Counted from the first letter of the stretch, positions 28,156 to 60,188 are shown. The stretch is DNA of 64,000 bases from Gammaproteobacteria bacterium (GCA_021324815.1 JAJPIJ010000013.1:62001-126000), one strand, 5' to 3'. Notes: generated by a model from the sequence alone, not told the origin. Numbers and translations: made by a program.

Positions 28156-28197
28156 TTGATCCAGGTCAAAAAGCCGCAGCCGCATTTCGACTATCTT
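28156..28197 (+). promoter_or_regulatory. FNR/ANR-type box with -10 element upstream of dodecin-groEL
   Basis: TTGATCCAGGTCAA (28156-28169) differs at one base from the FNR palindrome TTGAT-N4-ATCAA. TATCTT at 28192-28197 begins 29.5 bases after the box centre, which is class II geometry (box at about -41.5). The GCATTTC spacer word recurs at the same position at the hpf promoter near 32693. An AGGAGG ribosome site lies nine bases before the dodecin start. Confidence 0.75.
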
Positions 28198-28231
28198 TTG
28201 AAAAAGGATCCCTCATCAGGAGGCAGCCGCC

Positions 28232-28432
28232 ATGACTATGCTGAAAGTCGTCGAAGTACTGGCCGAATCAGACAAAAGCTGGGAGGACGCCGCCCAGAAC
28301 GCCGTCAAACAGGCGGCCAGGACGGTGCGGAACATCAAGTCCATTTACATCAAGGAGATCGAGGCGACCGTGCAGAACGACAAAATCGCGAAATACCGCA
28401 TCAACGCGAACATCTCCTTCGTTCTCGAATAG
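28232..28432 (+). CDS. Dodecin-family small protein
   Basis: A 66-residue protein with the dodecin pattern ([34 protein letters not shown]). Dodecins form hollow dodecamers that store flavin or other ligands. Aligned without gaps to archetypal flavin dodecins, the stacking Trp is Ser here (NIKSIYI) and the flavin-contacting Gln is Arg (KYRINAN). Flavin binding in the usual way is therefore doubtful. A strong AGGAGG precedes it, and a FNR-type promoter drives it. It probably shares a transcript with the groEL gene 47 bases downstream. Confidence 0.88.
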
Positions 28433-28479
28433 GGCGCCCCGTCGCCGGACACCGGCGTCAGCGACGGCAGCAAAACATT

Positions 28480-30099
28480 ATGACGCACAAGCAGGTCCTG
28501 TTCCGCAACGCCGCGCGCGAGAAGGTGCTGCGCGGCGCCTCACAGCTCGCGGACGCCGTGCGCATCACGCTGGGGCCCAAGTCCAAATCGGTGCTGATCC
28601 AGAAAAAATGGGGCGCGCCGATTGTCTGCAACGACGGCGTAACCATCGCCAAGGAATTCGAGCTGAAGGATTTGGAGGAGAACCTCGGCGCGCAGATGCT
28701 GCGCCAGGCGGCGGAGAAAACCGGCGAGGCGGTCGGCGACGGCACCAGCACCTCGACCATACTGGCCCATGCCATTTTTTCCGACGGCGCGCGCAACGTG
28801 GTCGCCGGCGCCAGCGCCATCGATTTGAAGCGCGGCCTCGACCGCGGCCTCAAGGCCGTGATCGATTCGCTGCGCGCGCAATCCCGGACGGTGAAGACGC
28901 GCCTGGAGAAGGCGCAGGTCGCCACCATCTCGGCGCACAACGATGCGGTGATCGGCGAGCTGGTGGCCGAGGCGATGGAGAAGGTGGGCGGCGACGGCGT
29001 CATCACCGTCGAGGAGTCGAAGACCACGGAGACGGTGCTCGAGGTCGTCGAGGGCATGCAGTTCGACCGCGGCTATCTCTCCCCCTATTTCGTCACCGTC
29101 CCCGAGAAAATGGAGGCGGTGCTGGAGGACGCCCTCGTGCTGCTGGTCGATCGCAAGATCAGCCTGCTCAAGGACATCATCCCCCTGCTCGAACAGGTGG
29201 CCAAGGCCGGCAAGCCCATCCTGGTCGTCGCCGAGGACGTGGAAGGCGAGGTGCTCGCCACCCTCATCGTCAATCAGATCCGCGGCATCCTGCACAGCAT
29301 CGCGGTCAAGGCGCCGGGCTTCGGCGACCGCCGCAAGGAGATGCTGCAGGACATGGCGGTGCTGACCGGCGGCCAGGTGATCTCCGAGGAGCTCGGGATC
29401 GAGCTTGAGAACGTCAAGCTCGCCCAGCTCGGCCGCGTCAAGCGCGTGGTCAGCAACCGCGACACCACCACGCTCATCGGCGGCGCCGGCGAGCGCCGCG
29501 CCATCGACGGCCGCATGCAGCAGATCAAGAAGCAGATCGAAACCACGACCGGCAGCTACGACAAGGAGAAGCTCGAGGAGCGCCTGGCCAAGCTGGCCGG
29601 CGGGGTCGCGGTGATCAAGGTGGGCGCCCCCTCGGAGGCGGAGATGAAATCGAAGAAGGAGGCGCTGGATGACGCCATCTCGGCCACCAAGGCCGCCGTG
29701 GCGGAGGGCATCGTCCCCGGCGGCGGGCTGGCGCTGCTGCGCTCCATCAGCGCCGTGGCGGCCGCGGAGGCCAGAACGGAGGGCGACGAGCGGACCGGCT
29801 TGCAAATCCTGCGCCGGGCGCTCGAGTCGCCCGCCCGCACCATCGCCCGGAATTCCGAGATGGATGACGGCGTGGTGGTGGCGCGCATGCTGGCGGAGTC
29901 GGGCGACGTCGGCTTCGACGCCGCCGCCAAGCGCTACGTGGACATGTACCAGGCCGGCATCATCGACCCCACCAAGGTGGTGCGCATCGCGCTGGAGAAC
30001 GCCGTGTCCGTGGCGAGCGTCCTCTTGCTCACCGAGGCCACGCTGACCGAGGTTCCGGAGAAGGCCGGCGAAAAGGAATCTCCCGGGCCGGCGATGTAA
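28480..30099 (+). CDS. groEL: GroEL-family chaperonin (stand-alone copy)
   Basis: A 539-residue group I chaperonin subunit. It has the ATP-binding [22 protein letters not shown] and GEGIVPGGG-like motif ([13 protein letters not shown]). The C-terminal Gly-Gly-Met tail of housekeeping GroEL is absent and the protein ends KESPGPAM. No groES gene is near; the partner upstream is a dodecin. The start is the ATG of MTHKQVLF, not the far upstream start in the track, which reads through intergenic DNA. Such extra GroELs are often stress- or condition-specific. The FNR-type promoter suggests induction at low oxygen. It would need to borrow GroES from elsewhere. Confidence 0.93.
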
Positions 30100-30105
30100 T
30101 CCGCG

Positions 30106-31938
30106 TTACCGAACCATCGCCCTGAGCAGCGGGCGCAGTTCGGCCAATGAGCGGGTGTTGAGCACGTCCTTCTTCTCCAGCCAGCCGCGGCGCGCCTGGC
30201 CGACGCCGAAGCGCAGGTTGGCGAATCCGGGCGTGCTGTGCGCGTCGGAATTGATGCTGATCAAAACGCCGGCCTCCTTTGCCTCGCGGCACCAGACGTC
30301 GTTCAGATCCAGCCGCTCCGGCTGGGCGTTCAATTCCAGGCAGCAGCCGCGTTCTCTGGCCGCCCGGATGATCGCGCCCATGTCCACGTCGATGGCGTTG
30401 CGCTTGTTGATCAGGCGGCAGGTGGGATGCGCCAGGATGTTGAAACAACGGCGCTCCATGGCGCGCAAAATCCGGCGCGTCTGCTGCGCGCGCGGCAGCT
30501 CGAAGTGGCTGTGGATGGCGCCCACCACGACGTCCAGCTTCGACAGCACGCGATCAGGCAGGTCGAGATCGCCCGATTCGAGGATGTCGACCTCGATCCC
30601 CTTCAGCAGCGTGACGCCGCGCAATTTTTCGTTGAGCCTGTCGATGGCCTCGACGTGGCGCAAGAGGCCCTCCTCGTCGAGGCCGCGCGCCACGGTGAGA
30701 TGGCGGGAATGTTCGGTGATGGCGAGATAGCGGAGGCCGGCGTCGCGGGCCGCCGCGGCCATCTCCTCGAGGCTGCCCAGGCCGTCGGTGGCGCGCGTGT
30801 GCGCGTGCAGATCGCCCTTCAAATCACCGAGCTCGACGAGTCGCGGCAGGCGCCGGGTTTGGGCGGCCTCGATCTCGCCGTTGTTCTCGCGCAGCTCGGG
30901 CGGGATGACGGGCAGATCGAGCGCGCCGTAGACGGACGCCTCCGTGTCGCCGGCGACGCGCCGCTCGCCGCGAAACACGCCGTACTCGCTGATCTTGAGC
31001 CCCTTTTTCCGCGCCAGGCGGCGGATGGCGATGTTGTGGGCCTTGGAGCCGGTGAAATACACCAGCGCGGCGCCGCCGGCCTCCCGCGCCACCACGCGCA
31101 GGTCGGCCTGCAGGCCGGAGCGCAGCACCACGCTGGCGCGGGTCGGGCCGCGGGCGATCACGTCGCTGACCTCGTCGTAGCGGAGAAAGTGATCGACGAC
31201 GGGACCGCCGGCGGCGGCAATCGCAAGAATGTCCAGATCGCCGATCGTGTCGCGCATGCGGCGCAGGCTGCCCGCCGCCGCGACCTCATGCACGCCCGGC
31301 GCGCGGCGGAGATAGGGCACGAGCCGCTCCGCCTCGGCGGCGGCGGCGGCGATGGACGCGCGCGGCTTGTCCCGCAGCCGGGATTCCAGCGCGGTGAGCA
31401 GTTTCCGCTCGGTCTTTTCGCCGAAGCCGTGCAGCCGGCGTATCCTGCCCTCGCGCGCGGCCTTCAGCAGTTGCGCGGGGGTTTCGATGCCGAGGTCGTG
31501 GTAGAGCAGCTTCACGCGCCTGGGTCCGAGGCCGCCGATTTGCAGCAGGTTGACGATGCCCGGCGGGACCTCGCGGTGCAGCCGCTCCCGCAGCTTGCAG
31601 GTGCCGGTCTCCACGATCTCGTGGATCTTGCCGAGCAGGTCGTCGCCGATGCCCGGCAGTTTCGGCAGTTCGCCGCCGCCGGTGATGATGCCGGCGATGT
31701 CGCGGCCGAAGGCCTCCACCGTGCGCGCGCCGTTGCGGTAGGCGCGGATGCGGTAGGGATTGGCCCCCTCGATCTCAAGAATGTCCGCGATTTCATTGAA
31801 GACGGCGGCGATGTCGCTGTTTCCCACCCTTGCCGGTTGCTTCAAGGCGGCCCCGGGCGCCGCGGGGCTGGCTTGGCCGGCGGAGGACGGGCGATCCTTC
31901 GCCGGTCGTCTTGCCGCCGCCTCAGGGACGGCGCGCAT
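30106..31938 (-). CDS. polX: Family X DNA polymerase with PHP exonuclease domain (PolX)
   Basis: A 610-residue bacterial PolX. A basic, Pro/Ala-rich extension of about 40 residues is followed by the HhH/8-kDa and polymerase regions (NSDIAAVFNEIADILEIEG, LPGIGDDLLGKI, GDLDILAI with catalytic Asp pair). The PHP phosphoesterase domain lies at about 365-610 (GDLHAHTRATDG, YLAITEHS, NSDAHST). PolX fills gaps and trims 3' ends in base excision repair and end-joining. Its start overlaps the upstream phosphoribosyltransferase gene by 17 bases, so it is co-transcribed from the divergent FNR-type promoter. It converges with groEL. Confidence 0.94.
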   Translation of the reverse strand: MRAVPEAAARRPAKDRPSSAGQASPAAPGAALKQPARVGNSDIAAVFNEIADILEIEGANPYRIRAYRNGARTVEAFGRDIAGIITGGGELPKLPGIGDDLLGKIHEIVETGTCKLRERLHREVPPGIVNLLQIGGLGPRRVKLLYHDLGIETPAQLLKAAREGRIRRLHGFGEKTERKLLTALESRLRDKPRASIAAAAAEAERLVPYLRRAPGVHEVAAAGSLRRMRDTIGDLDILAIAAAGGPVVDHFLRYDEVSDVIARGPTRASVVLRSGLQADLRVVAREAGGAALVYFTGSKAHNIAIRRLARKKGLKISEYGVFRGERRVAGDTEASVYGALDLPVIPPELRENNGEIEAAQTRRLPRLVELGDLKGDLHAHTRATDGLGSLEEMAAAARDAGLRYLAITEHSRHLTVARGLDEEGLLRHVEAIDRLNEKLRGVTLLKGIEVDILESGDLDLPDRVLSKLDVVVGAIHSHFELPRAQQTRRILRAMERRCFNILAHPTCRLINKRNAIDVDMGAIIRAARERGCCLELNAQPERLDLNDVWCREAKEAGVLISINSDAHSTPGFANLRFGVGQARRGWLEKKDVLNTRSLAELRPLLRAMVR

Positions 31939-32620
31939 GACTGGCCTCCGCGCCCGTCGATGATTCCTGGGGCGCCGATTCCGCCTCCCGGCCCCGGCAC
32001 GCGGCCAGCTCGCGCAGCACGTCCTCGTCGGAAAGCTGCCGGAAGTCCAGGTAATACGACCCGACCGAGCCGCTGAAAAATGCGGGCAGATGGGCGGTGA
32101 CGCAATCGTCCGCTTCGCGGGCCAGCAGGGCCACGGCGTCGCGCGGCGCCACCGGAACAGCGACGATCAATTTCGCCGGGCCGTCTGCGCGTACTTCCCT
32201 GATCGCAGCCAGCATGGTGAGGCCGGTGGCCAGGCCGTCATCCACGAGCACGGCGCATTTGCCGGCGGCGGACAGTCGCGGTTGGCCGCCGCAGTAGAGC
32301 TCCCGGCGCCGGCGGGACTCCCGCCGCTGCGCCTCGATCTCCGCCCCGAGCCAGCGCTGATCCAGCGCGCGGCATTCCACTTCATTCAGCACGGCTTCTC
32401 CCGTTTCCGTGACCGCGCCCACCGCGTACTCCGGATGACGGGGATGGCCGATCTTCCGCGGTATCACCAGATCGAGGGGCAGGTCGAAGGCCGCCGCGAT
32501 CCCGGCCGCCACCGGCACGCCGCCGCGCGGCAGCGCATAGACGATGGCCGGCTTGCTGACGCGGCCTGCCAGTGCCCGGGCCAGCTCCCTGCCGGCATGA
32601 CGGCGGTTCGTGAACCCCAT
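31922..32620 (-). CDS. Phosphoribosyltransferase-family protein (copy 1)
   Basis: A 232-residue type I PRTase. It has an N-terminal R-R-AGRELA region, ALPRGGVPVA, PRKIGHPRHPEYAVGAV and the PRPP loop VLVDDGLATGLTM. Its C-terminal tail resembles the PRTases found beside Hsp20, erythromycin-esterase and universal stress genes (COG1926). The substrate base is not known for this group. The start MGFTNRRHAG is chosen because AAGGGG precedes it, and the predicted -10 (TATGCT) lies 20 bases further up. It is about half identical by eye to the protein at 47925-48572. Confidence 0.88.
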   Translation of the reverse strand: MGFTNRRHAGRELARALAGRVSKPAIVYALPRGGVPVAAGIAAAFDLPLDLVIPRKIGHPRHPEYAVGAVTETGEAVLNEVECRALDQRWLGAEIEAQRRESRRRRELYCGGQPRLSAAGKCAVLVDDGLATGLTMLAAIREVRADGPAKLIVAVPVAPRDAVALLAREADDCVTAHLPAFFSGSVGSYYLDFRQLSDEDVLRELAACRGREAESAPQESSTGAEASHARRP

Positions 32621-32639: not shown

Positions 32640-32708
32640 AGCATAGCCCCGGCATGGCGGGTAATATTGATCCAAGTCAACGCGGTCCCTGCGCATTTCA
32701 CCTATTTT
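32640..32708. promoter_or_regulatory. Bidirectional FNR/ANR-type promoter between PRTase-polX and hpf-nrdJ
   Basis: The box TTGATCCAAGTCAA (32667-32680) has one mismatch to the FNR palindrome. Rightward, TATTTT (32703-32708) begins 29.5 bases from the box centre. Leftward on the minus strand, TATGCT (32645-32640) begins 28.5 bases from the centre. Both fit class II activation, so a single dimer site could drive both operons. Confidence 0.75.
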
Positions 32709-32742: not shown

Positions 32743-33114
32743 ATGCCCATCCCGCTGGAAATCGATTTTCGCAATGTTGAACGCACGGCGGCCCTGGAAG
32801 GCGTCTTGCGGAAAAAAGTCGGGAAGCTCGAACATTTCTGCGACCGCATCACCAGTTGCCACGTCACCCTGGAGGCGCCGCACCGGCATCATCACAAGGG
32901 CGGGCGGTACCAGGTCCACATCCGCCTGTCGGTGCCGGGCAAGCTGCTGGCGGTGAGCCACAAAACCGGCGGACAGTCGCACGAGGACGCCTATGTCGCC
33001 ATCCGCGACGCCTTCTCGGCGGCGCGCCGCCAGCTCGAGGATCACGTCAGGATCATGCGCGGCGACATCAAGACGCCGCGCCCCCGTCCGCGCCGCCGGA
33101 AAAACGCGGAATGA
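32743..33114 (+). CDS. hpf: Ribosome hibernation promoting factor / RaiA family (short form)
   Basis: A 123-residue protein matching the short HPF/RaiA fold: PLEIDFRNVERTAALEGVLRKKVGKLE, CHVTLEAPHRHHHKGGRYQVHIRLSVPG, EDAYVAIRDAFSAARRQLED, and a basic tail PRPRPRRRKN. These proteins sit in the 30S decoding channel and silence ribosomes in starved or anaerobic cells. GAGGGGG precedes the ATG. It is the first gene of a unit driven by the bidirectional FNR-type site. Members of this low-oxygen variety are often found beside Hsp20 and PRTase genes. Confidence 0.9.
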   Translation: MPIPLEIDFRNVERTAALEGVLRKKVGKLEHFCDRITSCHVTLEAPHRHHHKGGRYQVHIRLSVPGKLLAVSHKTGGQSHEDAYVAIRDAFSAARRQLEDHVRIMRGDIKTPRPRPRRRKNAE

Positions 33115-33132: not shown

Positions 33133-34932
33133 ATGCCCGCGCCGCAAGCACAGGAGATTTGCCGCCAGACCCTGCTTGAAAAATACGCCGCGGCCGGCGA
33201 GCGATCGGTCGCGGAGGTGCAGCGGCGTGTCGCCCGGGCGCTGGCCCTGGTCGAAACCGCGAAAAAGCGCGTCCACTGGGAGAAAAAATTTCTCGCGGCG
33301 ATGACGGCGGGGTTCGTGCCCGCCGGCCGGATCAACTCCGCCGCCGGCACGCGACTGCACGCGACTTTCATCAACTGCTTCGTGCAGCCGGTGGGGGATT
33401 CAATCTCCGGCAAGTGCGACGGCCGGCCGGGCATCTACGTGGCGCTGATGGAATCCGCCGAAACCATGCGGCGCGGCGGCGGCGTCGGCTACGACTTTTC
33501 GGCAATCCGTCCCCGCGGCGCGCTGGTCAGGGGCACGCATACGCGCGCCAGCGGCCCGCTCTCCTACATGCGGGTGTTCGACATCTCCTGCGAAACGGTC
33601 GAGGCGGCGGGCACGCGGCGGGGGGCGCAAATGGGCGTCCTGCGCTGTGATCATCCCGACATCGAGGAATTCATCCACGCCAAGGATGCCGGGGGGCTCG
33701 CCAATTTCAACCTGTCGGTCGGCGTGACCGATGCCTTCATGACAGCGGTGCAAAACGACGACGAGATTGAGCTGGTCCACATGGCGGAACCTCATCCGGC
33801 CCTGTTCACCGCGGGCGTCCACCGGCGCGGCGACGGCCTGTGGGTGTACCGCCGGGTCCGGGCGCGGGCGCTGTGGGATCAGATCATGCGCTCGACCTAC
33901 GATCACGCCGAGCCCGGCGTGCTGTTTCTCGACAGCATCAACCGCGACAACAATCTGTACTATTGCGAGACCATCGCGGCCACCAACCCCTGCGGAGAAC
34001 AACCCCTGCCGTCCTACGGCTCCTGCTGCCTGGGCTCGATCAACCTCACCCGCTTTGTGCGCGCCCCCTTCCGCGCCGGGGCGCGTTTCGACTTCGCCGC
34101 CTTTGCGGACACGGCGGGGATCGCGGTGCGCATGCTGGACAACGTCCTCGATGCGACCCTCTGGCCGCTGCCGGCGCACAGGCGCGAGGCCATGAACAAG
34201 CGCCGCGTGGGTCTGGGCTTTCTCGGGCTGGGCGATGCGCTCATCATGCTGCGACTGCGTTACGATTCCGCGCCGGCGCGCGCCCTGGCGGCGAAGATTG
34301 CCACGTGCATGCGCGACGCCGCCTATCGGGCCTCCGTGGCGCTGGCGCGCGAGCGCGGCCCGTTTCCGCTGTTCGACGCCGGCAAATACCTTGGCGGCGG
34401 GAATTTCGCTTCGCGGCTGCCTGCGCCGATCAAGGCGCTGATCAGAAAACACGGGCTGCGCAACAGTCACCTCCTGTCCATCGCGCCGACCGGCACCATC
34501 AGCCTCGCCTTCGCCGACAACGCCTCGAGCGGCATCGAGCCGCCATTTGCCTGGAGCTACCGGCGGAAAAAACGCATGGCTGACGGTTCGAGAAGGGAAT
34601 TTGAAGTGGAGGATTACGCCCACCGTGAGTATCGTCTCGCGGGCGGTGACGTGAAAAGACTGCCGGGTTACTTCGTCACCGCGCTGGAGCTTTCCGCGTC
34701 CGCGCACCGGGAGATGGTGGCCGCCGTCGCCCCCTGCATCGATTCCAGCATTTCCAAGACCGTCAACGTGCCGGAGAACTACCCCTTCGATGACTTTCAG
34801 GACTTGTATTTCGCCGCCTGGCAATCGGGATTGAAGGGTTTGACCACCTACCGGCCCAATGTGATCACCGGCGCGGTGCTGTCGCCGGGCCGGCCGCTCA
34901 AGGCGGGGAGGTTCTGCCAGGTCAATCTGTAA
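33133..34932 (+). CDS. nrdJ: Adenosylcobalamin-dependent ribonucleotide reductase (class II), short form
   Basis: A 599-residue class II reductase, making deoxynucleotides without oxygen. Active-site motifs are present: ATFINCFV (first redox Cys), [31 protein letters not shown] (radical Cys with Asn and Glu), and [20 protein letters not shown]. The protein stops soon after [12 protein letters not shown] and ends [10 protein letters not shown]. The family's usual C-terminal tail with a Cys-x-x-Cys shuttle and zinc-like cysteines is missing, and there is no N-terminal ATP cone. Either a thiol donor acts directly or the enzyme is impaired. It follows hpf with 18 bases between. Confidence 0.92.
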
Positions 34933-34957: not shown

Positions 34958-37345
<2,388 letters not shown>

Positions 37346-37357
37346 GGCGGTCCCGGG

Positions 37358-37759
37358 CTAGAGTTTGACCAGCGTCAGCACCAGGCAGCCGTTTGCAACC
37401 TCATTTCCGGCCACCTCGTAACGTCCCGGCGGCAGTTCAATGCGCCGTTCAAAGCGGCCGTGGGGGATTTCAAGGCGATGGATGAAGTCCGAGGAGCCGG
37501 CATGGATGCGGCGTTCGGCAACGATGCGCACGCTGGCGCCGTCGGTCATGACCTTGACCGCGTCCGGCGCCACGCCGGGCAGGGCCGCCAGGATGATGAC
37601 GGCCCGCTCGTTCTCGATGATATCGACGGGCGGCTCCCAGCAGGGGCCGCCGGCGGCGGCCTCGTTGAGGTCGCAAAAATGCCTGTGCAGACGGTCGGCC
37701 TGGCGCAGCAACTCCAGGGCTTCCGCCAGCATTTCAGCGCCGGGATTGCGCGAAGTCAT
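37358..37759 (-). CDS. Hsp20/alpha-crystallin family small heat-shock protein
   Basis: A 133-residue protein with an alpha-crystallin core at about 42-130 (WEPPVDIIENERAVIILAALPGV, DFIHRLEIPHGRFERRIELP, NGCLVLTLVKL). The C-terminal I-x-I tail of oligomer-forming members is lacking, because the protein ends at LVKL. It acts as an ATP-independent holdase. GTAAGG/GGAG precedes the start. It leads a two-gene operon with lon. Confidence 0.9.
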   Translation of the reverse strand: MTSRNPGAEMLAEALELLRQADRLHRHFCDLNEAAAGGPCWEPPVDIIENERAVIILAALPGVAPDAVKVMTDGASVRIVAERRIHAGSSDFIHRLEIPHGRFERRIELPPGRYEVAGNEVANGCLVLTLVKL

Positions 37760-37853
37760 GCCTTACGTTCTCCACGGATGCGGGGGCCTGTTCCCTGTTT
37801 TTCTCAAGTGTAGGTCAAATCGCAGAGGCTGTCCCGCGGGATCTGGCCCGGAC

Positions 37854-37867
37854 TTGATCCATGTCAT
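37854..37867. promoter_or_regulatory. Degenerate FNR/ANR-like box between hsp20 and prs
   Basis: TTGATCCATGTCAT shares the TTGATCCA half seen at 28156 and 32667 but has two mismatches in the right half. Candidate -10 boxes lie 39.5 bases to the right and 48.5 bases to the left of the centre, so the geometry is not class II. It is weaker than the other sites. Confidence 0.45.
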
Positions 37868-37934: not shown

Positions 37935-38127
37935 GGGAGGCGGCCGTCGTCGATGACGTTGATTGAATTGCCCATGCCGGAGAGCATCCATGTCCAGGTC
38001 GCCCAAGCCGCCCGGCGTCTTGGGCGCCATGCGGCGACGGCGATCCGTCCGTTCCCGCACCGTCGAAAAACCCGGCCGCGACACCATCTGGGCTTTGCTG
38101 AATGAAACAGCCGCGGGGGAAGACGTC

Positions 38128-39108
38128 ATGTCCGATCCGGTGATTTTCGCGCTGCAGGCGTCCCATGACTTCGGCGCTCGCGTGGCGGGGCGCCTGGGCC
38201 TGCCGTTGAGCGCGCATGAAGAACGCGAATTCGAGGACGGCGAGCACAAATCGCGGCCGTTGATCAACGTCCGCAACCGCGACGTGTACGTCATCCAGTC
38301 GCTCTACGGCGATCGCGCCCAGACCGTCAATGACAAGCTGTGCCGGCTGCTGTTCTTCATCGGCGCGCTGCGCGACGCCTCGGCGGCGTCGGTGACGGCC
38401 GTCGTCCCCCATCTCTGTTACGCCCGCAAGGACATCCGCACCCAGCCGCGCGATCCGATCACCACCCGGTACGTGGCCATGCTGTTCGAGGCGGTGGGCG
38501 TCAACCGCATTGTCGCGCTCGAGGTGCACAACCTGGCCGCCTTCCAGAACGCCTTTCGCTGCCCGGTCGAACACCTCGACACGGCGGCGCTGTTCGCACG
38601 GCATTTTGCCGCGACACTCGCGGACGTGCGGCCGCTCGTCGTGGTGTCGCCGGACGCGGGCGGCTTGAAGCGCGCCGATCGCCTGCGGCAGCGGCTGGCG
38701 CGGGCGTTGAACAGCGAGGTGCCCGTCGCGGTCATGGAAAAGGCGCGCGGCAAGGGCGTGCTCACCGCCGGCCGGCTGGTCGGCGACGTCGGCGGCGGCT
38801 GCGCCATCATCGTCGACGACATCGTCAGCACCGGCGGCACGCTCGCCCATGCGGCGCGGGCCTGCCGGGCGCAGGGCGCCACGCGCGTGATCGCCGCGGC
38901 CGCGCATGGCCTGTTCGTGGGGAAAGCCGCGGAAATTCTCGGCGGCGGCGATCTGGATCAGATCGTCGTCACGGACTCCGTGCCGCCGTTCCGCCTGTCC
39001 GCCGCGGCGGCGTCCAGGGTGGCGATCGTATCGGCGGCGGAACTGTTCGCCGAAGCCATCCGCCGGATTCACGAGGGCGGCTCGCTGGCCGACTTGCTCG
39101 AAAACTGA
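38128..39108 (+). CDS. prs: Ribose-phosphate pyrophosphokinase (PRPP synthetase), second-type
   Basis: A 326-residue PRPP synthetase-like protein that transfers pyrophosphate from ATP to ribose-5-phosphate. Readable motifs are EFEDGEHKSRPL in the flexible loop region, PHLCYARKDIRTQPRDPITTRYVA, VSPDAGGLKRAD and the PRPP-binding loop CAIIVDDIVSTGGTL. The start MSDPVIFAL is supported by GGGGGAAG upstream; the longer frame in the track has unrelated residues. It diverges somewhat from housekeeping Prs. PRPP is the substrate of the phosphoribosyltransferases at 31922 and 47925, so these genes may act in one nucleotide-salvage route under stress. Confidence 0.9.
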   Translation: MSDPVIFALQASHDFGARVAGRLGLPLSAHEEREFEDGEHKSRPLINVRNRDVYVIQSLYGDRAQTVNDKLCRLLFFIGALRDASAASVTAVVPHLCYARKDIRTQPRDPITTRYVAMLFEAVGVNRIVALEVHNLAAFQNAFRCPVEHLDTAALFARHFAATLADVRPLVVVSPDAGGLKRADRLRQRLARALNSEVPVAVMEKARGKGVLTAGRLVGDVGGGCAIIVDDIVSTGGTLAHAARACRAQGATRVIAAAAHGLFVGKAAEILGGGDLDQIVVTDSVPPFRLSAAAASRVAIVSAAELFAEAIRRIHEGGSLADLLEN

Positions 39109-40508: not shown

Positions 40509-40509
40509 G

Positions 40510-43990: not shown

Positions 43991-46104
<2,114 letters not shown>

Positions 46105-51383: not shown

Positions 51384-51803
51384 TCAAACGTCCACGACCG
51401 TCTGCGCCAGCCATTGGCCACGGCAGTCCCGGGCGACGCGCAGGGCGGTGTAGGTCGCGCCCTTGACTTCCACCGCCGGCCGGTGCCGCGCCACATCGAC
51501 GCGCTCCCCCCAGGCGCGCGCGTCCAGCCGGCCGTCGTTGATATGCACTTCGAATCTGCTGAAAAGCATCTTGTTCACCGCCATCTCAAAGACGAGGCTG
51601 TTCAGCCATTCCGCGAACAGCAGCTCATCGTTCGGCGCCTCGCAGCGCAGCGCAACCTCTTCGCGCGGTGCGATGGTGTTGAGGTCCGCGATCACCGCCG
51701 TCAGCGCCAGCGCCGCCTGCTCGAAGGCCTCGGCCCTGGTCGCCCCGAAGCCGCGCACGCCCATGTCGGCCTCGTGGGGGAAGTGCTCCCAATGGCCGCT
51801 CAT
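51384..51803 (-). CDS. Archease, RtcB cofactor
   Basis: A 139-residue archease (HFPHEADMGVRGFGATRAEAFEQAALAL at the start, LLFAEWLNSLVFEMAVNKMLFSRFEV, VEVKGATYTALRVARD). Archease speeds guanylylation and turnover of RtcB. The long frame in the track (51384-52907) is archease extended backward through nnrS out of frame; the ATG at MSGHWEHF overlaps the nnrS stop by four bases. The gene ends three bases before rtcB. Confidence 0.92.
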   Translation of the reverse strand: MSGHWEHFPHEADMGVRGFGATRAEAFEQAALALTAVIADLNTIAPREEVALRCEAPNDELLFAEWLNSLVFEMAVNKMLFSRFEVHINDGRLDARAWGERVDVARHRPAVEVKGATYTALRVARDCRGQWLAQTVVDV

Positions 51804-52945
51804 GACCGCCGCACGTGAACCAGGAGAGCCAGCAACAGCGCATAGGCACCCGACCAGCACGCGGCCGCCGTCAGCAGAAGCGAATCGCCGCCGGCGACGT
51901 GGGCCGCCGCAAGGCGCGCGCAGGTGGCGGCGGCGATCAACACCGTGCCGATGACGGGCGCCCGGACGCGGGCGGGATCGAGCCTCGCCCGCGTCACGGC
52001 GACGCGCGCCATGACGTTCAACGTCAGGGTTCCCAGCGCCCCGACCGTGAGCGCGTGCAGCGCCGTGGTCACCGCGCCTCCCGCCAGCCACGCCCGCGCA
52101 AACAGCAACAGGCCAACAGCGATCCAGGCGTAACCGACGCCAAGGCACCACAGATCCGGCCGCGCGCGCGCCGCCCATAGCCGCCAGCGCAGCATGCGCA
52201 CCAGCGCCATGACGCCCGCCGCGGCGATCGCAATTCCCGCCGGAACGCGGCCCCACGGAATCACCGCCAGGATCAAGGCCACGACCACGCTGGCGATCAA
52301 GCCGGCCTCCAGTCGCGGTTGGACGCGCGGCCCGAGATACTGCCCCTGACGATAGAACTGGCCCGCGGCCGCCGGCGCGATGATGCGGCCGCCCATGAAC
52401 AGCATCAGCAGCGCGAACAGCAGCACCGCCTCGGCATAGGCCAGGTGTTGCGCCCCGCCGGCGGCCGCGTATCTGGCGATCTCCTGCGCGATGGCGGCGA
52501 GCGCAATCCCGGCGATCATGAATACAAAGGACTGGTTGCGCGCCTTCTTCGCGGCCCGCAGATATTTCGGCGCGACCTCCATGACCAGCATGACCACAAA
52601 GGCGCTGTTGAAGGCGACGGCCGCCGGATTCCGGGGCAGGAGCAGAAAGGACGTGCGCGCGGCGATCCACAGGCCGAGCAATGCGAGCAGCCGGCCCGGG
52701 GGAAGGCTGCCCAGCAGATAGCCGGCGATCACGGCGAGCGCGTAGCCGAACAGCATTTCGTGCGCATGGCCGAGGCTGCCCGTCAGGGCCGGTGGCACGC
52801 GCTGAAATCCGGTCATGCCGAGGACGGAGAGCGGCAGCACCAGGATTGCGTGCATTGTCGCCAAGGGGAAAAAAATCTCGTGCGCGGGCAATCGATGGGA
52901 AAGCCATGGGGATGCCGTCGAGTGATGGGTTGCGCCGGAGGTCAC
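51800..52945 (-). CDS. nnrS: NnrS-family haem-copper membrane protein (copy 1)
   Basis: A 381-residue protein with about ten to twelve hydrophobic helices. NnrS motifs include AHEIFFPLA, GSLGHAHEMLFGYALAVIAGYLL and VTTALHALTVGALGTLTLNVMARVAVTR. NnrS proteins protect denitrifiers and pathogens against nitric oxide stress and are usually controlled by NO-sensing regulators. It shares its transcript with a second nnrS gene upstream and archease-rtcB downstream. Confidence 0.92.
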   Translation of the reverse strand: MTSGATHHSTASPWLSHRLPAHEIFFPLATMHAILVLPLSVLGMTGFQRVPPALTGSLGHAHEMLFGYALAVIAGYLLGSLPPGRLLALLGLWIAARTSFLLLPRNPAAVAFNSAFVVMLVMEVAPKYLRAAKKARNQSFVFMIAGIALAAIAQEIARYAAAGGAQHLAYAEAVLLFALLMLFMGGRIIAPAAAGQFYRQGQYLGPRVQPRLEAGLIASVVVALILAVIPWGRVPAGIAIAAAGVMALVRMLRWRLWAARARPDLWCLGVGYAWIAVGLLLFARAWLAGGAVTTALHALTVGALGTLTLNVMARVAVTRARLDPARVRAPVIGTVLIAAATCARLAAAHVAGGDSLLLTAAACWSGAYALLLALLVHVRRS

Positions 52946-52994
52946 GAGCCGATTCTACGCCTGCGCCGCGCCCCGGGGATGCCTGCGCCGGCGG

Positions 52995-54206
52995 TCAGCC
53001 GGGACGGCCGTCGGCACGTGGACGCAGCAGCTTGGGCGCATAGACGATCAAATAGATCAAAAACGCCCCCGCCCACAGGCAGCTCGCGACATGGGTCGCC
53101 ACAACGATGTTGACCGCCGGCACCGCCAGGGGGGTGATGATCCGCAACATTGCGGCGAACGAAATCATCAGATAGGCCGCGGCGATGACCGGCGCGACCT
53201 TGAGCGGCCGGCCGGTGTGGCCCAGCGCCACCCGCGACATCATCCCCAGCGTGAAGGTGCCGATGGCGCCGGCGCCGAGGCCGTGGATGGCGTCCTGCCA
53301 TCGCATCCAGCCCGTGAGCGACGCCGCCCTGAGCAGCAGCCCGATCACCACCCAGGCGTAGCCCAGATGCAGCACCCACAGGATCGGCCGGCCCGCCGTC
53401 TTCACCGTCTGCCAGCCGCGCATGCGCCAGGCGTTGATGGCGCCGGCCGTCAATGCCGCCAGGCCCTGCAACCAGGGCAGGGCGGGAATGAACTCCAGTC
53501 CCGTCAACGCCAGCACGGCGTACAGCGCCCACCGGTCGGTCCAGTTGGGTTCGCGCGGCGGACTGCCGACCGCATTGGCGGTGAAGCTCGGCACCACGCG
53601 TCCGCCCACGACCACCATGAGCACGGTGACCAGATCGATCGCCGTCTTGAGGCCCAGCTCCTCTCCATTCGGGACGATCCGCATGGCGCCCAGATGAATC
53701 AGCGCATCGGCGGCGGCGAACGCCATCAGCACCCGCGGAAACAGGAAATGGCGCGGTTTGCCGGCGGCGACGATGGACGGGCGGATGGCCGCCGCCAGCG
53801 CCGGGAAAAAAGCCGCATCAACGATCGCAACCAGCCACAGCGGCAGCCACGCGCTCAGCAACATCGCCGCGCGGCCGGCCAGCCAGATCGCGGCCAACGC
53901 CGCCAGCGCGCCGCCCCTGTGTCCCGGCACGCCGGTCCAGTTCGGGACCGCCGTCAGCAGAAATCCCGCGATGACGGCGGCGGTGAAGCCGAAAATCATC
54001 TCATGGCCGTGCCACACCGGCGCCATGTAATTCATGGGCAGCGGGAAGACGGCGCCGTAGATAAGCGACCACAACGGCATCCACACCGAGGCGGCAAGCG
54101 CCGCGAGCAGGAAGAACGGCCGGAACCCCAGCGCCCAGACGGGATGTGACCAGGAACGCATCACCTGCCCACGCGCGCGGACAAGGCGGAAAAACGAACG
54201 CGGCAT
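52995..54206 (-). CDS. nnrS: NnrS-family haem-copper membrane protein (copy 2)
   Basis: A 403-residue multi-helix membrane protein: HPVWALGFRPFFLLAALAA, APVWHGHEMIFGFTAAVIAGFLLTAVPNWTG, GGRVVPSFTANAVG, QDAIHGLGAGAIGTFTLGMMSRVALGHTGR. This is the classical NnrS form; copy 1 is more diverged. The ATG at 54206 is given, but the internal ATG at 54161 (MRSWSHPVW) is an attractive alternative because it overlaps the stop of an 18-codon leader frame (TGATG). It is the first gene of the nnrS-nnrS-archease-rtcB-capA unit. Confidence 0.92.
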   Translation of the reverse strand: MPRSFFRLVRARGQVMRSWSHPVWALGFRPFFLLAALAASVWMPLWSLIYGAVFPLPMNYMAPVWHGHEMIFGFTAAVIAGFLLTAVPNWTGVPGHRGGALAALAAIWLAGRAAMLLSAWLPLWLVAIVDAAFFPALAAAIRPSIVAAGKPRHFLFPRVLMAFAAADALIHLGAMRIVPNGEELGLKTAIDLVTVLMVVVGGRVVPSFTANAVGSPPREPNWTDRWALYAVLALTGLEFIPALPWLQGLAALTAGAINAWRMRGWQTVKTAGRPILWVLHLGYAWVVIGLLLRAASLTGWMRWQDAIHGLGAGAIGTFTLGMMSRVALGHTGRPLKVAPVIAAAYLMISFAAMLRIITPLAVPAVNIVVATHVASCLWAGAFLIYLIVYAPKLLRPRADGRPG

Positions 54207-54288: not shown

Positions 54289-55977
54289 TCAGGGCCTGGG
54301 AAGCATGGAAACGACATGGTCGGCGACACGGAAGCTGTTGGCGTAGATGGTGAAGGTAAAGGGGACGCTGCCGCCCGTGGGCATGAAGCTGCCATCGCTG
54401 ACGTACAGGTTCTCGACGTCGTGCACGCGGCAGTGACTGTCGAGCACGGAGGTCGCCGGATCGGCGCCGAAGCGGCAGCCGCCGGCCTGGAGATTGGGCG
54501 TGGGCGCGCCGTTCGGCGCCGAGACCACATCGCGGAATTTCATCCGCTCGAGCACCGGCCGCGCACGATCGGAGAGATACTGCGACACCCTGTCGTCATG
54601 GGGATGGCGGCCGATGCGCACGCGCGCCACCGGCAATCCCCATTTGTCCTTCACCACCGGATCGAGCGTCACAAAGCAATCGTCTTGTGGCAGCCAGTCA
54701 CAGAAGATTTCAAAGCGCAGAATGCGGCTCGTCTTGAACACCTGCTCCAGCCGGCGCTTGAGCGTCGCGCCCCACACCAGCGTGCCATCCTCCGCGAATC
54801 GCTCGGAGAGCGCGCGGGCGAGGTAGCCGGGGGAGTTGAGCACGAAATCGATGGTGCCGCCCTTGGCCCTTCCACCCAGCGCCGGGTCCTCGATGTGATA
54901 CCAATCCTGCAAGCCGCGGTTGACGAACGGCCCGATCTGTTTCATCTCTTCGACCACGCCGGCGTCCATCCCGTCATAGGGCAGATGGCCGGCGCCCGTC
55001 GCGCCGGCGGAGAAGATCAGGTTGCGGCCCACCTGGCCGCGATTGTTGCCCAGGCCCCGCGGATGCTTCGGGCCGGTCGACAGCAGCAGGAGGCGCGCGG
55101 ATTCGATCGCCTGGCAGGCGACGACATAGACATGCGCATCCACGCGCCGCTGGATGCCTTCCCGATCGTAATAGAGGGCGCCGGTGACGCGGCCGCGGTG
55201 GTCGCTTGTCAGCTTGAAAACATGGGCGTGGGGCCGGATCTCGCAGCGACCGGTGGCGACGGCGCGATCGAGGAGCGCGGCGCGCGCGCCGCCCTTGGCG
55301 CCGCTGGCGCAGCCGTAGCTGCCGCAGAAGCCGGAATACTGGCAGCCGCCGCGACCCCTAGCCGGCGCCGGCAGGATGGCGCGGGCCACCGGCAGCGGCG
55401 TCAGGCCGAGCTCGCCGCAGGCGCGATCGATCCACCCCGCGAGCACGTGCTCCCGCGTGGGCGGAAAGGGGAAGTCGGCGGTCGAGCGCGGCTCGGCGAA
55501 GCGGTGCGAAACGACGCGGCCGGAGACGCCGACCTCGCGCTCGACCCGGGCGTAGTAAGGCTCGAGATCGTCGTAACTGATCGGCCAGTCGGCGATGTTC
55601 GCGCCGGCGATGGGACCGAAGGTGTCGAGCAGATGAAAATCGTCCGGCTTGAGGCGGAAGAACTGGCCGCTCATGAAATTCGACGAGCCGCCGACGCAAT
55701 TGCCGTTCCAGTAATCGTGGCCGGATTTCGGATCGGAGGTGGGCAGCGCCGACCAGCCGCCGTCGGCGGGCTCCTCGATCACCTGCGGCTCGTCGAGGTG
55801 ACTCGATCGGAACGGCCGGCGGTGGCAGCAGGCGAGTTCGTCCTTGTAGAAATCCTTCTCCGTGAACCAGGGACCCTTTTCCAGCACCACCACCGAGAAG
55901 CCGGCCCGCGCAGCCTCGAAGGCCACCGGGGCGCCACCGGCGCCGCTGCCGATCACGCAAACGTCGCAGTCCTTCAC
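54289..55977 (-). CDS. GMC-family FAD-dependent oxidoreductase
   Basis: About 562 residues. The FAD-binding fold starts at once (CDVCVIGSGAGGAPVAFEAARAGFSVVVLEKGPW) and continues with GNCVGGSSNFMSG and YVVACQAIESARLLLLS. The C-terminal GMC domain has QAGGCRFGADPATS and NLYVSDGSFMPTGGS. The large-subunit style resembles gluconate 2-dehydrogenase and related periplasmic alcohol or sugar dehydrogenases, and the next gene upstream is a subunit 3-like protein. The GTG start at 55977 overlaps that gene by GTGA. The usual His before QAG and Asn in the last motif appear replaced (NLQAGG, SVPFTFTIYANSF), so the active site is atypical. No cytochrome c subunit is adjacent. Confidence 0.88.
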   Translation of the reverse strand: MKDCDVCVIGSGAGGAPVAFEAARAGFSVVVLEKGPWFTEKDFYKDELACCHRRPFRSSHLDEPQVIEEPADGGWSALPTSDPKSGHDYWNGNCVGGSSNFMSGQFFRLKPDDFHLLDTFGPIAGANIADWPISYDDLEPYYARVEREVGVSGRVVSHRFAEPRSTADFPFPPTREHVLAGWIDRACGELGLTPLPVARAILPAPARGRGGCQYSGFCGSYGCASGAKGGARAALLDRAVATGRCEIRPHAHVFKLTSDHRGRVTGALYYDREGIQRRVDAHVYVVACQAIESARLLLLSTGPKHPRGLGNNRGQVGRNLIFSAGATGAGHLPYDGMDAGVVEEMKQIGPFVNRGLQDWYHIEDPALGGRAKGGTIDFVLNSPGYLARALSERFAEDGTLVWGATLKRRLEQVFKTSRILRFEIFCDWLPQDDCFVTLDPVVKDKWGLPVARVRIGRHPHDDRVSQYLSDRARPVLERMKFRDVVSAPNGAPTPNLQAGGCRFGADPATSVLDSHCRVHDVENLYVSDGSFMPTGGSVPFTFTIYANSFRVADHVVSMLPRP

Positions 55978-56528
55978 CGCTTCAGCAACTCGAAATAACG
56001 CTTGTCCGCCGGCGGGCGGGGGAAGCCGGGTATGTAATCCAGCCATGTCCAACCGGCCTCGCGGGTGTTGCCGCCGTACACGGGATCGGTCAGCAGCGCC
56101 TCGAGCAGGTAATATAGCAGCAGCGCCAGCCAGTTCCTGCCCGCCTCGCTCCCCCGCTCCATCCGGCGAAGCAGCGCCTCCCGCCCGGACACCGTGAGCG
56201 TGTCAAACGATCCGCCTGCATGATCCCGGACCCATGTCTTTTGCAGCCAGCCGGCGCCCGCCAGCAGAAATTTTTTCTCCTGCGGATCCGCATCCGGCGC
56301 GTCGAGGGCCGCGCGCAGATAGCCGATGGCGTTGATCTGCGCGGCGCCGGGCGCGCCGGCCTCCACCGGCAGGAGGTGCGCCTGCACCGACGCAATGATT
56401 TCCCAGAGGGGGTCGGAACCCGCGTCGGTGGCGGCGGGGACCGGGGCGGCATCCGCGATTTCCGTCACGCCGAGAACGAGGCCGGCACCGGCGGTCAGGC
56501 TTTTCAGAAACGCCCGCCGGCGCAGCAA
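55974..56528 (-). CDS. Gluconate 2-dehydrogenase subunit 3-like protein with Tat-type signal
   Basis: About 184 residues. A twin-arginine-like leader (LRRRAFLKSLTAGAGLVLGV) would export it, probably dragging its GMC partner across the membrane as is known for gluconate dehydrogenase subunit 3. The mature part (DPLWEIIASVQAHLLPVEAGAPGAAQINAIGYL, WLALLLYYLLEALLTDPVYGGNTREAGWTWLDYIPGFP) matches the family. The TTG at 56528 follows GGAG by eight bases; a GTG at 56546 is the alternative. The ATG at 56666 in the track adds an unrelated, non-signal-like stretch. Confidence 0.82.
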   Translation of the reverse strand: MLRRRAFLKSLTAGAGLVLGVTEIADAAPVPAATDAGSDPLWEIIASVQAHLLPVEAGAPGAAQINAIGYLRAALDAPDADPQEKKFLLAGAGWLQKTWVRDHAGGSFDTLTVSGREALLRRMERGSEAGRNWLALLLYYLLEALLTDPVYGGNTREAGWTWLDYIPGFPRPPADKRYFELLKR

Positions 56529-56906
56529 CAGGCGCTCTCCTATCACCCTGGCCTGCGCGGCATGGGAATAACGGAATGCCGGGCGCGTGGTGGAAACAAC
56601 GGATGTGGCGCGCGTGATTTTCACTGGCGGGCGGGTTGTATCACCCCGGCTGGAGCAAATCCGCAATTCGCGGTTTTTATCAACCAGCGCTGGTTATGTG
56701 AAACCGCGGCGATGGCGGTTTTCATTGGTTCGACGGTTTCCTTGACGTGCATCCGCGCAAAAGGGCGATGATTTTATGATGATGACCGCCGGCCGGCGAA
56801 AATTAATTCGAGGAAATTTGATCTGGATCAAAAAGAATGCAAAGCGGGCGGAGCACACATTAGAGCTGATGATATTGGCATGGACGGTGCCTGAAGTGTC
56901 GGCCAT
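56529..56906. other. Divergent control region before pqqB
   Basis: About 380 bases with no convincing intact gene. It contains the perfect FNR-type box at 56818-56831 and, from 56869, a stretch whose first ten codons look like the start of PqqA (see pseudogene entry). The rest holds nothing I can recognise. Confidence 0.5.
56818..56831. promoter_or_regulatory. Perfect FNR/ANR-type box upstream of pqqB
   Basis: TTGATCTGGATCAA fits the palindrome TTGAT-N4-ATCAA with no mismatch. It ends 75 bases before the pqqB start. A matching -10 at class II spacing is poor (CATTAG-like), so the mode of action is unclear and repression is possible. Confidence 0.7.
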
Positions 56907-56910
56907 ATGC
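56869..56910 (+). pseudogene. Possible truncated pqqA remnant abutting pqqB
   Basis: The frame starting [14 protein letters not shown] resembles the N-terminal half of PqqA precursors (W-x-x-P followed by hydrophobics), where the peptide should continue to a Glu-x-x-x-Tyr crosslink motif. Instead the frame runs into the pqqB start in another reading frame and reads CEYIFLAR with no Tyr four residues after the Glu. It is either a deletion remnant or chance. Confidence 0.25.
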
Positions 56911-57827
56911 GAATACATATTCTTGGCTCGGGCGCGGGCGGCGGGTTCCCGCAGTGGAATTGCAACTGCCGAAACTGCGACGGCTTCCGCAAGGGGACCA
57001 TTCGGGCCCGCCGCCGCACGCAGTCATCCATCGCGGTGAGCAGCGACTCCCTGAACTGGGTGCTGTTCAACGCCTCCCCCGACATCCTCGCCCAGCTGCA
57101 TGCCCTGCCCGCCATGCAGCCGGCGAGAGCGGTTCGTGACACCGGCATCCGCGGCATCGTGCTCATCGACAGCCAGATCGATCACACGACGGGGCTGCTG
57201 ATGTTGCGCGAGTGCACCCGGCCGTTGCGCGTATATTGCACCGAGGCCGTGTACGAGGACCTAACCACGGGGAATCCGATCTGCGACGTGCTTTCGCATT
57301 TTTGCACCGTGGACTGGCAACCCATCCGGTTCAACGGCGCCGGCTGCACGTTCACGGTGCCGGGGGTGGAGCGCCTGTGCCTTGCGGCCCATCCACTCAA
57401 GAGCAAGGCGCCACCCTACTCGCCGCATCGGAATCATCCCCATGTCGGCGACACCATCGGCGTTGTCATCGAGGATCTCACGACGGGCGGCAGGCTGTTT
57501 TACGCGCCGGGACTGGGGGAAATGGAGCCCCACGTCCTGCCGCTGATGCGGAACGCCGATTGCGTGCTGGTTGACGGCACCTTCTGGCGCGAGGACGAAA
57601 TGGCGGCGGCGGGGATCGCCGACAAGCGTTCCCGGGAGCTCGGACATCTGCCGCAATCCGGTCCCGGTGGAATCATCGAGGTACTGGCGCCGCTGTCGAG
57701 GCCCCGGAAGATTTTGATTCACATCAACAACACGAATCCGATCCTGGACGAGGATTCGCCCGAACGGGCGGAGCTGACGCGTGCAGGCATCGAGGTTTCC
57801 CACGACGGAATGGAGATCGCACTATGA
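56907..57827 (+). CDS. pqqB: PQQ biosynthesis protein PqqB
   Basis: A 306-residue metallo-beta-lactamase-fold protein. It opens [19 protein letters not shown] and has the CNCRNC cysteines that bind zinc, then [15 protein letters not shown] and [14 protein letters not shown]. PqqB is a hydroxylase acting on the Glu-Tyr derived intermediate. The downstream pqqC start overlaps its stop by ATGA. No strong ribosome site precedes the ATG, which may mean coupling to an upstream peptide. Confidence 0.96.
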
Positions 57828-58594
57828 CTTTCCTGAGCAACATCAATCTTGCCATCGCTGAGAATTTCGAGGCGGACGATCAACCCTGGTCGCGCGACGA
57901 GTTCGAGCGCCGGCTGCGCGCCAAGGCGAAGTCCTACCACATTCACCACGAGTTTCACGTGCTCATGAACGAGGGCAGGCTCGACCCGGCGGCCATCCGG
58001 GGCTGGGTCGCCAACCGCTTCTACTACCAGGTGGCCATCCCGGTGAAGGACGCGGCGATCATGGCCAACTGCCCGCACCGTGACGTGCGCCGGCATTGGA
58101 TACAACGCATCATCGATCATGACGGCACGCAGGGCGAGGAGGGCGGCATCGAGGCCTGGCTGCGCCTCGGCGAGGCGGTGGGCCTGACGCGCGAGGAGCT
58201 GTGGGATCAGCGGCACGTTTTGCCCGGCGTGCGCTTCGCGGTGGACGCCTACATCAACTTCGCGCGCCGGGTGTCGTGGCAGGAGGCGGCGTGCTCATCG
58301 CTCACCGAGCTGTTCGCGCCCACCATCCACCAGCAGCGGCTGGACAACTGGCCCCGGCACTATCCCTGGATCAAGCCCGAGGGCTACGCCTATTTCCGCA
58401 AGCGGCTGTTCGAGGCGCCGCGTGACGTGAAGAACGGCCTCAAGATCACGCTCGACTCCTTCAAGACCCGCGCCGAGCAGGAACACGCGCTCCACATCCT
58501 GCAGTTCAAGCTTGACGTCTTGTGGACCATGGTCGATGCGATGTGGATGGCGTACATCGCCCAAAAGCCGCCGTACTGGAATATCGAGCAATGA
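57824..58594 (+). CDS. pqqC: Pyrroloquinoline-quinone synthase PqqC
   Basis: A 256-residue all-helical cofactorless oxidase performing ring closure and eight-electron oxidation, the last step of PQQ synthesis. Recognisable segments are [56 protein letters not shown] and [15 protein letters not shown], containing active-site His, Tyr and Arg residues. It overlaps pqqB by four bases. Confidence 0.97.
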
Positions 58595-58618
58595 TCGCCG
58601 GCGAGTGTGACGGGAATC

Positions 58619-58890
58619 ATGTTGAAATCGATACCGCGGCTCTTGCCCGGCAGACGCCTGCAATGGGAGGCGGCGCAGAATTGCTGGGTCATCCTTTATG
58701 CCGAGGGTATGGTGAAGCTCAACCCGAGCGCCGCTGAAATTCTCAGACGGGTGGATGGCGTAAGCACAGTTGATGAGATCATCGCCGATCTCAAGCGCGC
58801 CTTCCCCGGCGCGTGCTTGAAAACGACGTCTGCAAATTCATGGAGACAGCCCATGTCCGGCAGTGGCTATATTCCGAACCTCGTCAATAA
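58619..58890 (+). pseudogene. pqqD: PqqD peptide chaperone with apparent -1 frameshift
   Basis: Residues 1-65 are a clear PqqD ([54 protein letters not shown]). After codon GCG near 58811-58813 the family C-terminus is found in the -1 frame, reading [19 protein letters not shown] and ending at TAA 58890. In the original frame the ORF runs on into pqqE with non-PqqD residues. One missing base explains this. It may be an assembly error, a true mutation or recoding. PqqD presents PqqA to PqqE. Confidence 0.85.
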
Positions 58891-60025
58891 GCCGCTGTGG
58901 CTGCTGGCCGAGGTCACCTACGCCTGTCCGTTGCAGTGTCCGTATTGCTCCAACCCCGTCGATTACGCGCGTTACAAGAACGAACTCACCACCGAGGAAT
59001 GGATCCGCGTTCTCAAGGAGGCCCGCGCCATGGGGGCGGTCCAGCTCGGCTTTTCCGGCGGCGAGCCGCTGGCGCGGCGCGACCTGGAGGTATTGATCGC
59101 GGAGGCGCGGCGAATGGGCTATTACACCAACCTCATCACCTCGGGAATGGGCCTCACCGAGGAGCGCATCCGCGCCTTCAAGGACGCGGGGCTGGATCAC
59201 ATCCAGGTCAGCATCCAGGCGCCCGAGAAGTCGCTCAACGACTACATCGCCGGCACGGAATGTTTTGAGCAAAAACTGCACGCCTTGCGTCTGGTCAAGC
59301 AATACGACTTCCCGATGGTGCTCAACTTCGTCCGCCACCGGCTGACCGAGGATTACGTCAAGCCGATGCTCGATCTGGCCATCGAGGTGCAGGCCGATTA
59401 CGTGGAACTCGCCTTCACCCAGTACACCGGCTGGGATCACCTCAACCGCGACCATCTGCTGCCCACCCGCGAGCAGGTGCGGCGATCCGAGCGCATCGCC
59501 CATGAATACCAGGAGCGGATGCGCGGCAAGATGAAGATTCTCTTCGTCGTCCCGGATTATTACGAGGGCCGGCCCAAGGCCTGCATGAACGGCTGGGCCT
59601 CGGTGTTTCTCATCGTCACGCCGGATGGCACCGCCCTGCCCTGCCACTCGGCGCGCATCCTGCCGGGCATGGAATATCCCAGCGTGCGCCGGCACGGTAT
59701 CGAGTGGATATGGAGGGAATCGCCGGCATTCAACCGCTTCCGCGGCTTCGACTGGATGAAGGAAACGTGCCGCGCCTGCCCGGAGAAAACGAGCGATTTC
59801 GGCGGCTGCCGCTGTCAGGCCTACCTACTCACCGGCGATCCCTGCAACGCCGATCCGGTGTGCGGAAAATCACCGCACCACGGGGCCATTCTGGACGTCG
59901 TTGAAAGGACGGAGCGCGTCGTTGCCGGGACAGCAGAGCCGAAACCACTCCTCTTCCGCAATCCGCGCAACTCCAAAATCGTCACTGCGGAAATGCAACT
60001 TCCACGCACGATCACCCGGGAGTGA
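58853..60025 (+). CDS. pqqE: PqqA peptide cyclase PqqE (radical SAM)
   Basis: A 390-residue radical SAM-SPASM enzyme that crosslinks Glu and Tyr of PqqA. The SAM cluster motif is [15 protein letters not shown] follows. The C-terminal auxiliary-cluster cysteines are intact ([37 protein letters not shown]). The start MSGSGYIPN overlaps the end of the repaired pqqD frame by 38 bases. In the track it appears fused to pqqD, which I attribute to the pqqD frameshift. The last 40 residues after KSPHH are a variable tail. Confidence 0.94.
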
Positions 60026-60174
60026 CCATGCCGCCGGCCAGGATGTGCCGCAGGGCCTAGGCGAGACATGATTCCACGCCCGGTGGTCGCCGGCGTCATC
60101 GGTCGAATCTCGCTTTCATGTAATTTTTACAAGCATGATTCATCGGCACAATTCAATAATAATTGCGTGTATTT

Positions 60175-60188
60175 TTGATCTAGATCAA
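60175..60188. promoter_or_regulatory. Perfect FNR/ANR-type box upstream of the DUF6455 and cox genes
   Basis: TTGATCTAGATCAA is an exact palindrome match, in an AT-rich island unlike the surrounding DNA. TAAAAT at 60228-60233 begins 46.5 bases from the centre, closer to class I than class II spacing. Nearby bases 60026-60312 hold no other gene that I can support. Confidence 0.75.

Follow-up and report, generated by a model that had tools for sequence, protein, structure and literature searches.

The window examined here is a 64,000-nucleotide stretch of the genome of an uncultured proteobacterium, filed as Gammaproteobacteria bacterium (GCA_021324815.1 JAJPIJ010000013.1), comprising positions 62001-126000 of a 175-kb contig (C23). 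It carries six palindromes of the FNR type, TTGAT-N4-ATCAA, which lie before genes for a dodecin, a chaperonin, a ribosome hibernation factor, a class II ribonucleotide reductase (RNR), two phosphoribosyltransferases (PRTases) and Hsp20, and before pqq and DUF6455-cox genes (Table 1). Positions are counted from the window start unless given as contig positions. A first-pass annotation had taken these palindromes for a low-oxygen survival regulon, and this reading is supported by the site statistics, the promoter spacing, the conservation in related genomes and the presence of a single FNR. On these grounds we consider it highly probable (about 0.88) that the boxes serve as operators for the only [4Fe-4S] FNR (Anr-type) of this genome and belong to a clustered low-oxygen/dormancy regulon of 108 kb.

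The palindromes and their promoters

All six boxes reported by the first-pass annotation were found where it had placed them, three of them exact, two with one mismatch and one with two. Its argument that chance would hardly produce such a density also holds. When the window was scanned for the motif with at most two mismatches, 35 matches were obtained, compared to 11.4 +/- 3.4 in shuffled sequence (maximum 20). The exact palindrome occurs 11 times on the contig, nine times in intergenic regions as defined by our own gene calls, and no other spaced palindrome is so over-represented between the genes of the contig. Each of the other 1023 five-base half-sites has at most two intergenic copies at a gap of 4, the other 39 half-sites of TTGAT composition have no intergenic copies on the contig, and neither do TTGAT/ATCAA pairs with gaps of 0-3 or 5-11. 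Genome-wide, with each place entered once, there are 25 exact sites, 11 of them on this contig, which makes up 7% of the genome (binomial P=6e-7). A control in which the genome was searched with the reversed pattern (2 vs 118 sites) was not relied on, since such a pattern could be scarce on unrelated grounds. Two additional exact palindromes, at 30251-30264 in polX and 57714-57727 in pqqB, had escaped the first-pass annotation. Both were rejected as operators, being intragenic, and are probably due to chance, the former because it is not kept in the sister species.

Promoter geometry fits an FNR regulon as well. In 10 of the 18 box-promoter directions on the contig a -10-like hexamer lies 28.5-30.5 bases away from the centre of the box, while any other single offset is found 0-2 times. 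In the window the boxes at 28156, 32667 and 48626 show the previously claimed distance of 28.5-29.5 bases, i.e., class II geometry. For hsp20-lon and for the gluconate-2-dehydrogenase subunit 3-like (gdh3) and GMC oxidoreductase genes the best -10 lies at 48.5 bases, and the box is therefore near -60.5, close to the -61.5 typical of class I promoters, so that 37854 and possibly 56818 are class I-like.

Table 1. Boxes, -10 hexamers and genes of the window (G001, sister species; G002 and G003, another genus; G085 and G312, another family)
Feature	Position	Strand	Remarks
FNR box TTGATCCAGGTCAA	28156-28169	+	1 mismatch; before dodecin-cpn60; class II
FNR box TTGATCCAAGTCAA	32667-32680		1 mismatch; common to divergent PRTase-1 and HPF-nrd promoters
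FNR box TTGATCCATGTCAT	37854-37867		Weak, 2 mismatches; kept upstream of hsp20 in G001
FNR box TTGATTCAAATCAA	48626-48639	-	Exact; before PRTase-2 operon; kept in five other genomes
FNR box TTGATCTGGATCAA	56818-56831		Exact; between gdh3-GMC and pqqBC(DE)
FNR box TTGATCTAGATCAA	60175-60188	+	Exact; before DUF6455-coxBA; no class II -10
-10 TATCTT, dodecin-chaperonin	28192-28197	+	29.5 from box centre; TATTTT at equal offset in G001
-10 TATGCT, PRTase 1	32640-32645	-	28.5 from box centre
-10 TATTTT, HPF-nrd	32703-32708	+	29.5 from box centre
-10 TACACT, hsp20-lon	37807-37812	-	48.5 from box centre, class I position; TAAACT in G001
-10 TATACT, PRTase 2	48599-48604	-	28.5 from box centre; equal offset in G001, G002, G003, G085
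-10 TAAAAT, gdh3-GMC	56771-56776	-	48.5 from box 56818, class I position
Dodecin	28232-28432	+	First gene of operon; PF07311, E=4e-25
GroEL-like chaperonin	28480-30099	+	Second paralogue; 53% identity to the genome's other GroEL
PRTase 1	31922-32620	-	PF00156; start inferred by homology
HPF/YfiA-type hibernation factor	32743-33114	+	PF02482
B12-dependent class II RNR	33133-34932	+	TIGR02504
Lon protease	34958-37345	-	
Hsp20	37358-37759	-	
Phosphoribosyl pyrophosphate (PRPP) synthetase paralogue	37990-39108	+	FNR control not supported in G001
328-aa protein	46238-47224	-	Gene three of PRTase-2 operon; no Pfam domain; operon kept in G002, G003, G085, G312
Dienelactone-hydrolase-like protein	47266-47928	-	Gene two of PRTase-2 operon
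PRTase 2	47925-48572	-	TT1426/1wd5 family
gdh3 + GMC oxidoreductase	54289-56528	-	
pqqB, pqqC, pqqDE	56907-60025	+	
DUF6455 protein	60250-60777	+	PF20056
coxB (with cytochrome c domain) + coxA	60747-63615	+	

As for the genes served, HPF, class II RNR and the PRTases stand as the probable targets named earlier, whereas the first gene after 28156 encodes dodecin and not the chaperonin. The box at 37854 had been assigned to the PRPP synthetase gene (prs) but is conserved with hsp20-lon instead. In the sister species prs is about 1.3 kb away from the conserved hsp20 box, and FNR control of prs is thus unsupported in that species.

The regulator, conservation and extent of the cluster

A regulon of this kind calls for an Fnr, Anr or Dnr gene, and a single FNR with four cysteines is indeed encoded on the same contig (contig 40174-40965, minus strand, approximately 21-22 kb before the window start). 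It is one of three proteins of the genome with a Crp helix-turn-helix. Aligned with what we take to be the E. coli Fnr sequence, it has 35% identity and shares the ETVSR recognition helix as well as the four cysteines (Cys20, 23, 29 and 122). The protein thus has the Crp-Fnr fold with the Crp-type helix-turn-helix and the four [4Fe-4S] ligands, the solved structures closest to it are FNR structures, and its cluster and DNA binding would be expected to be oxygen-labile. The remaining two Crp-family proteins have a CRP-like helix (SREMVGRVL), and no regulator of the DNR/NnrR type was found among the Crp helix-turn-helix proteins of the genome. A search of viral contigs for this FNR gave no match.

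Two genes adjoining fnr resemble fixJ and fixL. The FixJ-like regulator matches its family below the cut-off, and the PAS domain of the kinase matches rhizobial FixL heme domains in an alignment to the rhizobial FixL structures. The residues that we take to be the proximal His and the FG-loop Arg of the heme pocket are conserved. Upstream of fnr, at contig 41059-41070, there is the sequence TACGTAGTTTCC, which we assume to be FixJ-box-like; the contig has no second copy of it, and it is kept upstream of fnr in G002 and G003.

The order of the host genome is poorly sampled, with four genomes in the comparison. Several sites were found together with their genes in relatives: that of PRTase-2 throughout the family, and those of dodecin-chaperonin, HPF-nrd/PRTase-1 and hsp20-lon. 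In G001 the PRTase-2, HPF/PRTase-1 and dodecin boxes have unchanged spacing. The dodecin box is identical, also in its 29.5 spacing, and the corresponding HPF/PRTase-1 site is an exact palindrome, TTGATTTGGATCAA. The hsp20 box is kept there with its class I-like arrangement. In G002 and G003, the box of PRTase 2 is exact but differs in its central bases, and the -10 lies at 28.5. A box also precedes the PRTase-hydrolase-328-aa operon in G085 and G312, where rtcB is found near this operon; in G085 a class II RNR gene adjoins rtcB.

The treatment of the palindromes as sites of one regulon by the first-pass annotation is supported, but the extent is at least 108 kb (33-141 kb of the contig) and not 32 kb. 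Boxes precede BON, host-attachment-family and phasin-phaC genes (contig 33478, 34056), lie between divergent ccoI and DUF6455-cco (46820) and upstream of the hemN region (55178), and are found at an L-PSP-domain gene (137725) and usp (141267). Exact boxes elsewhere in the genome stand before nosZ and before genes for an Fe-S oxidoreductase subunit, an enzyme of the cyclopropane-fatty-acid-synthase type and a TPR protein. Canonical FNR targets preceded by a box include ccoN/ccoI, the hemN region, usp, phasin-phaC and nosZ.

Several other genes lie in the same region. A gene for a class III anaerobic RNR, nrdD, is located at contig 133565-135631, 7.6 kb past the window end, with no box noted, and the cluster thus has two oxygen-independent RNRs (class II and class III). 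An alternative F1F0 ATPase operon (39666-45821) separates the PRTase-2 operon from the hsp20/prs site; the ATPase beta subunit has TIGR03305 as best match, below the cut-off, and no FNR box of its own was seen. Two adjacent nnrS genes (51800-54206) suggest exposure to nitric oxide. At 222-5732 there is an open frame of 1836 codons on the minus strand.

DUF6455 genes and FNR boxes

Both DUF6455 genes of the genome, the one in the window and another at contig 46894-47268, follow an exact box and head two different terminal-oxidase operons. In a class-wide search 30 of 369 genomes had a DUF6455 match, and 13 of the 30 loci carried a box with no more than one mismatch, located 100-330 bases ahead of the domain, compared to 2.5% of control windows (P~1e-13). 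As the control windows were mostly coding, a second, within-window control was made. Outside the family to which the window belongs, 10 of 27 loci had a box, TTGAT ranking first of the 1024 half-sites (mean 0.23); TTGAC was second with nine loci, overlapping with those of TTGAT. Most of the boxed loci have a -10 at 28.5-30.5, and ccoN, ccoI or hemN are neighbours of several. This evidence, which is statistical and positional, indicates that FNR boxes accompany DUF6455 genes across many families. The family-wide association appears to be new and is the best new point of this analysis.

Proposed action, alternatives and known systems

From the sites, spacing, regulator residues and conservation observed, we infer binding, an oxygen response, activation and a FixJ step. 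At low oxygen the heme-PAS kinase FixL would phosphorylate FixJ, which would induce fnr. FNR with an intact cluster would then dimerise and bind TTGAT-N4-ATCAA. From boxes near -41.5 it would activate dodecin-chaperonin, HPF-class II RNR, PRTase 1, the PRTase-2 operon, cco and usp in the class II manner, and from boxes near -60.5 hsp20-lon and probably gdh3-GMC in the class I manner. The expected output would be a switch to cbb3 respiration, oxygen-independent synthesis of deoxyribonucleoside triphosphates, ribosome hibernation, protein quality control and carbon storage.

A number of observations weigh against operators of a single FNR throughout. The DUF6455-cox promoter (60175) fits neither class II nor class I spacing; toward pqq, the box at 56818 is, like 60175, a good palindrome lacking class II spacing, and the 37854 box carries two mismatches. 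Neither 56818 nor 60175 was seen in G001, where DUF6455 had no match. Among PRTase-2 homologues outside the family a box was found in 3 of 28, slightly above chance, and upstream regions of class II RNR genes, compared as a footprinting set (80 loci, mostly betaproteobacterial), had a box in 3 of 79. The latter count gives no general link between class II RNR and FNR, and HPF-RNR control is taken as a feature of this lineage, because other class II RNR genes are mostly devoid of boxes.

The missing spacing at 60175 and on the pqq side of 56818 bears mainly on whether FNR acts everywhere as an activator. Repression at low oxygen is common for heme-copper cox genes, and the regulon could be real with FNR repressing some sites, notably DUF6455-coxBA and pqq, to shut off aerobic metabolism. 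We regard this as possible but rather unlikely, since class II spacing predominates at DUF6455 genes elsewhere and activation thus appears to be their usual mode. It is far less probable that chance or neutral AT-rich sequence accounts for the majority of the six palindromes, with the functional boxes being only those of the cco type outside the window. Some 11 matches per window are expected at two mismatches or fewer, and the intragenic sites in polX and pqqB are probably such, but this does not account for the intergenic excess, the class II spacing or the boxes kept with their spacing across a genus or family for four of the six. The nature of the regulator raises another question, as DNR, NnrR and FixK recognise the identical palindrome. 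Two nnrS genes inside the cluster and the box at nosZ would suit a nitric oxide-responsive DNR/NnrR or FixK-type regulator in place of an oxygen-sensing FNR; however, an FNR-type recognition helix is confined to one of the three Crp helix-turn-helix proteins, that protein has all four Fe-S cysteines, and this alternative is considered very improbable, if slightly less so than chance. FNR operators thus remain the favoured explanation.

Among the closest known systems are the Anr/FixK-controlled hypoxia genes and the low-oxygen-activated (lxa) locus of Burkholderia cenocepacia (PMC6127331, PMC9104464, PMC5234846). By description, they share clustered low-oxygen stress, Usp and metabolic genes, the FixLJ-to-Crp/Fnr cascade and the tie to anoxic survival; compared to that description, fnr is here inside the cluster, as are cco and the operons of HPF-class II RNR and the PRTases. 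The Fnr1/Fnr3 regulon of Herbaspirillum seropedicae is alike in the palindrome, the class II promoter at -42, fnr1 near the cbb3 genes and usp targets, but this organism has three Fnr paralogues instead of one, and nrd is unmentioned in the report (PMC5934665). Escherichia coli FNR and Pseudomonas ANR are similar in regulator residues, box and class II geometry, and differ in the target set.

Gene content is reminiscent of the DosR regulon of Mycobacterium tuberculosis, where by annotation a class II RNR (NrdZ), phosphoribosyltransferase, RtcB, Hsp20, Usp, ribosome hibernation factor and sensor kinases are likewise found (PMC5309233, PMC4090907). Rv0574c of that regulon was described as polyglutamate-synthase-like (PMC5309233, PMC4090907), and a PGA_cap gene in the window would be its counterpart by annotation. 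The proposed counterparts are class II RNR, the PRTase-hydrolase operon, RtcB, PGA_cap, HPF, Hsp20 and Usp. However, the presumed master regulator here is FNR and not DosR, and the RtcB and PGA_cap genes of the window have no box of their own. According to a review, DosR genes have relatives in environmental bacteria. The literature search yielded no paper in which FNR is linked to dodecin, hibernation factor and RNR together, and while the FNR regulon is ordinary in kind, its gene content appears to be new. Only tentatively do we propose that the cluster is an FNR-switched (under FixLJ) proteobacterial counterpart of the DosR regulon, with DUF6455 as a widespread, hitherto unrecognised protein of FNR regulons that is linked to low-oxygen respiration.

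With one regulator, a coherent set of low-oxygen survival genes and conserved promoter geometry, the sighting of a motif becomes a testable regulon. The conserved box places the PRTase, hydrolase and 328-aa genes, which have no known function, in the physiology of oxygen limitation, where their annotated DosR counterparts also belong in mycobacteria. The association of DUF6455 with FNR boxes gives a physiological context to a family that is mentioned once, by a single paper, in the literature searched.

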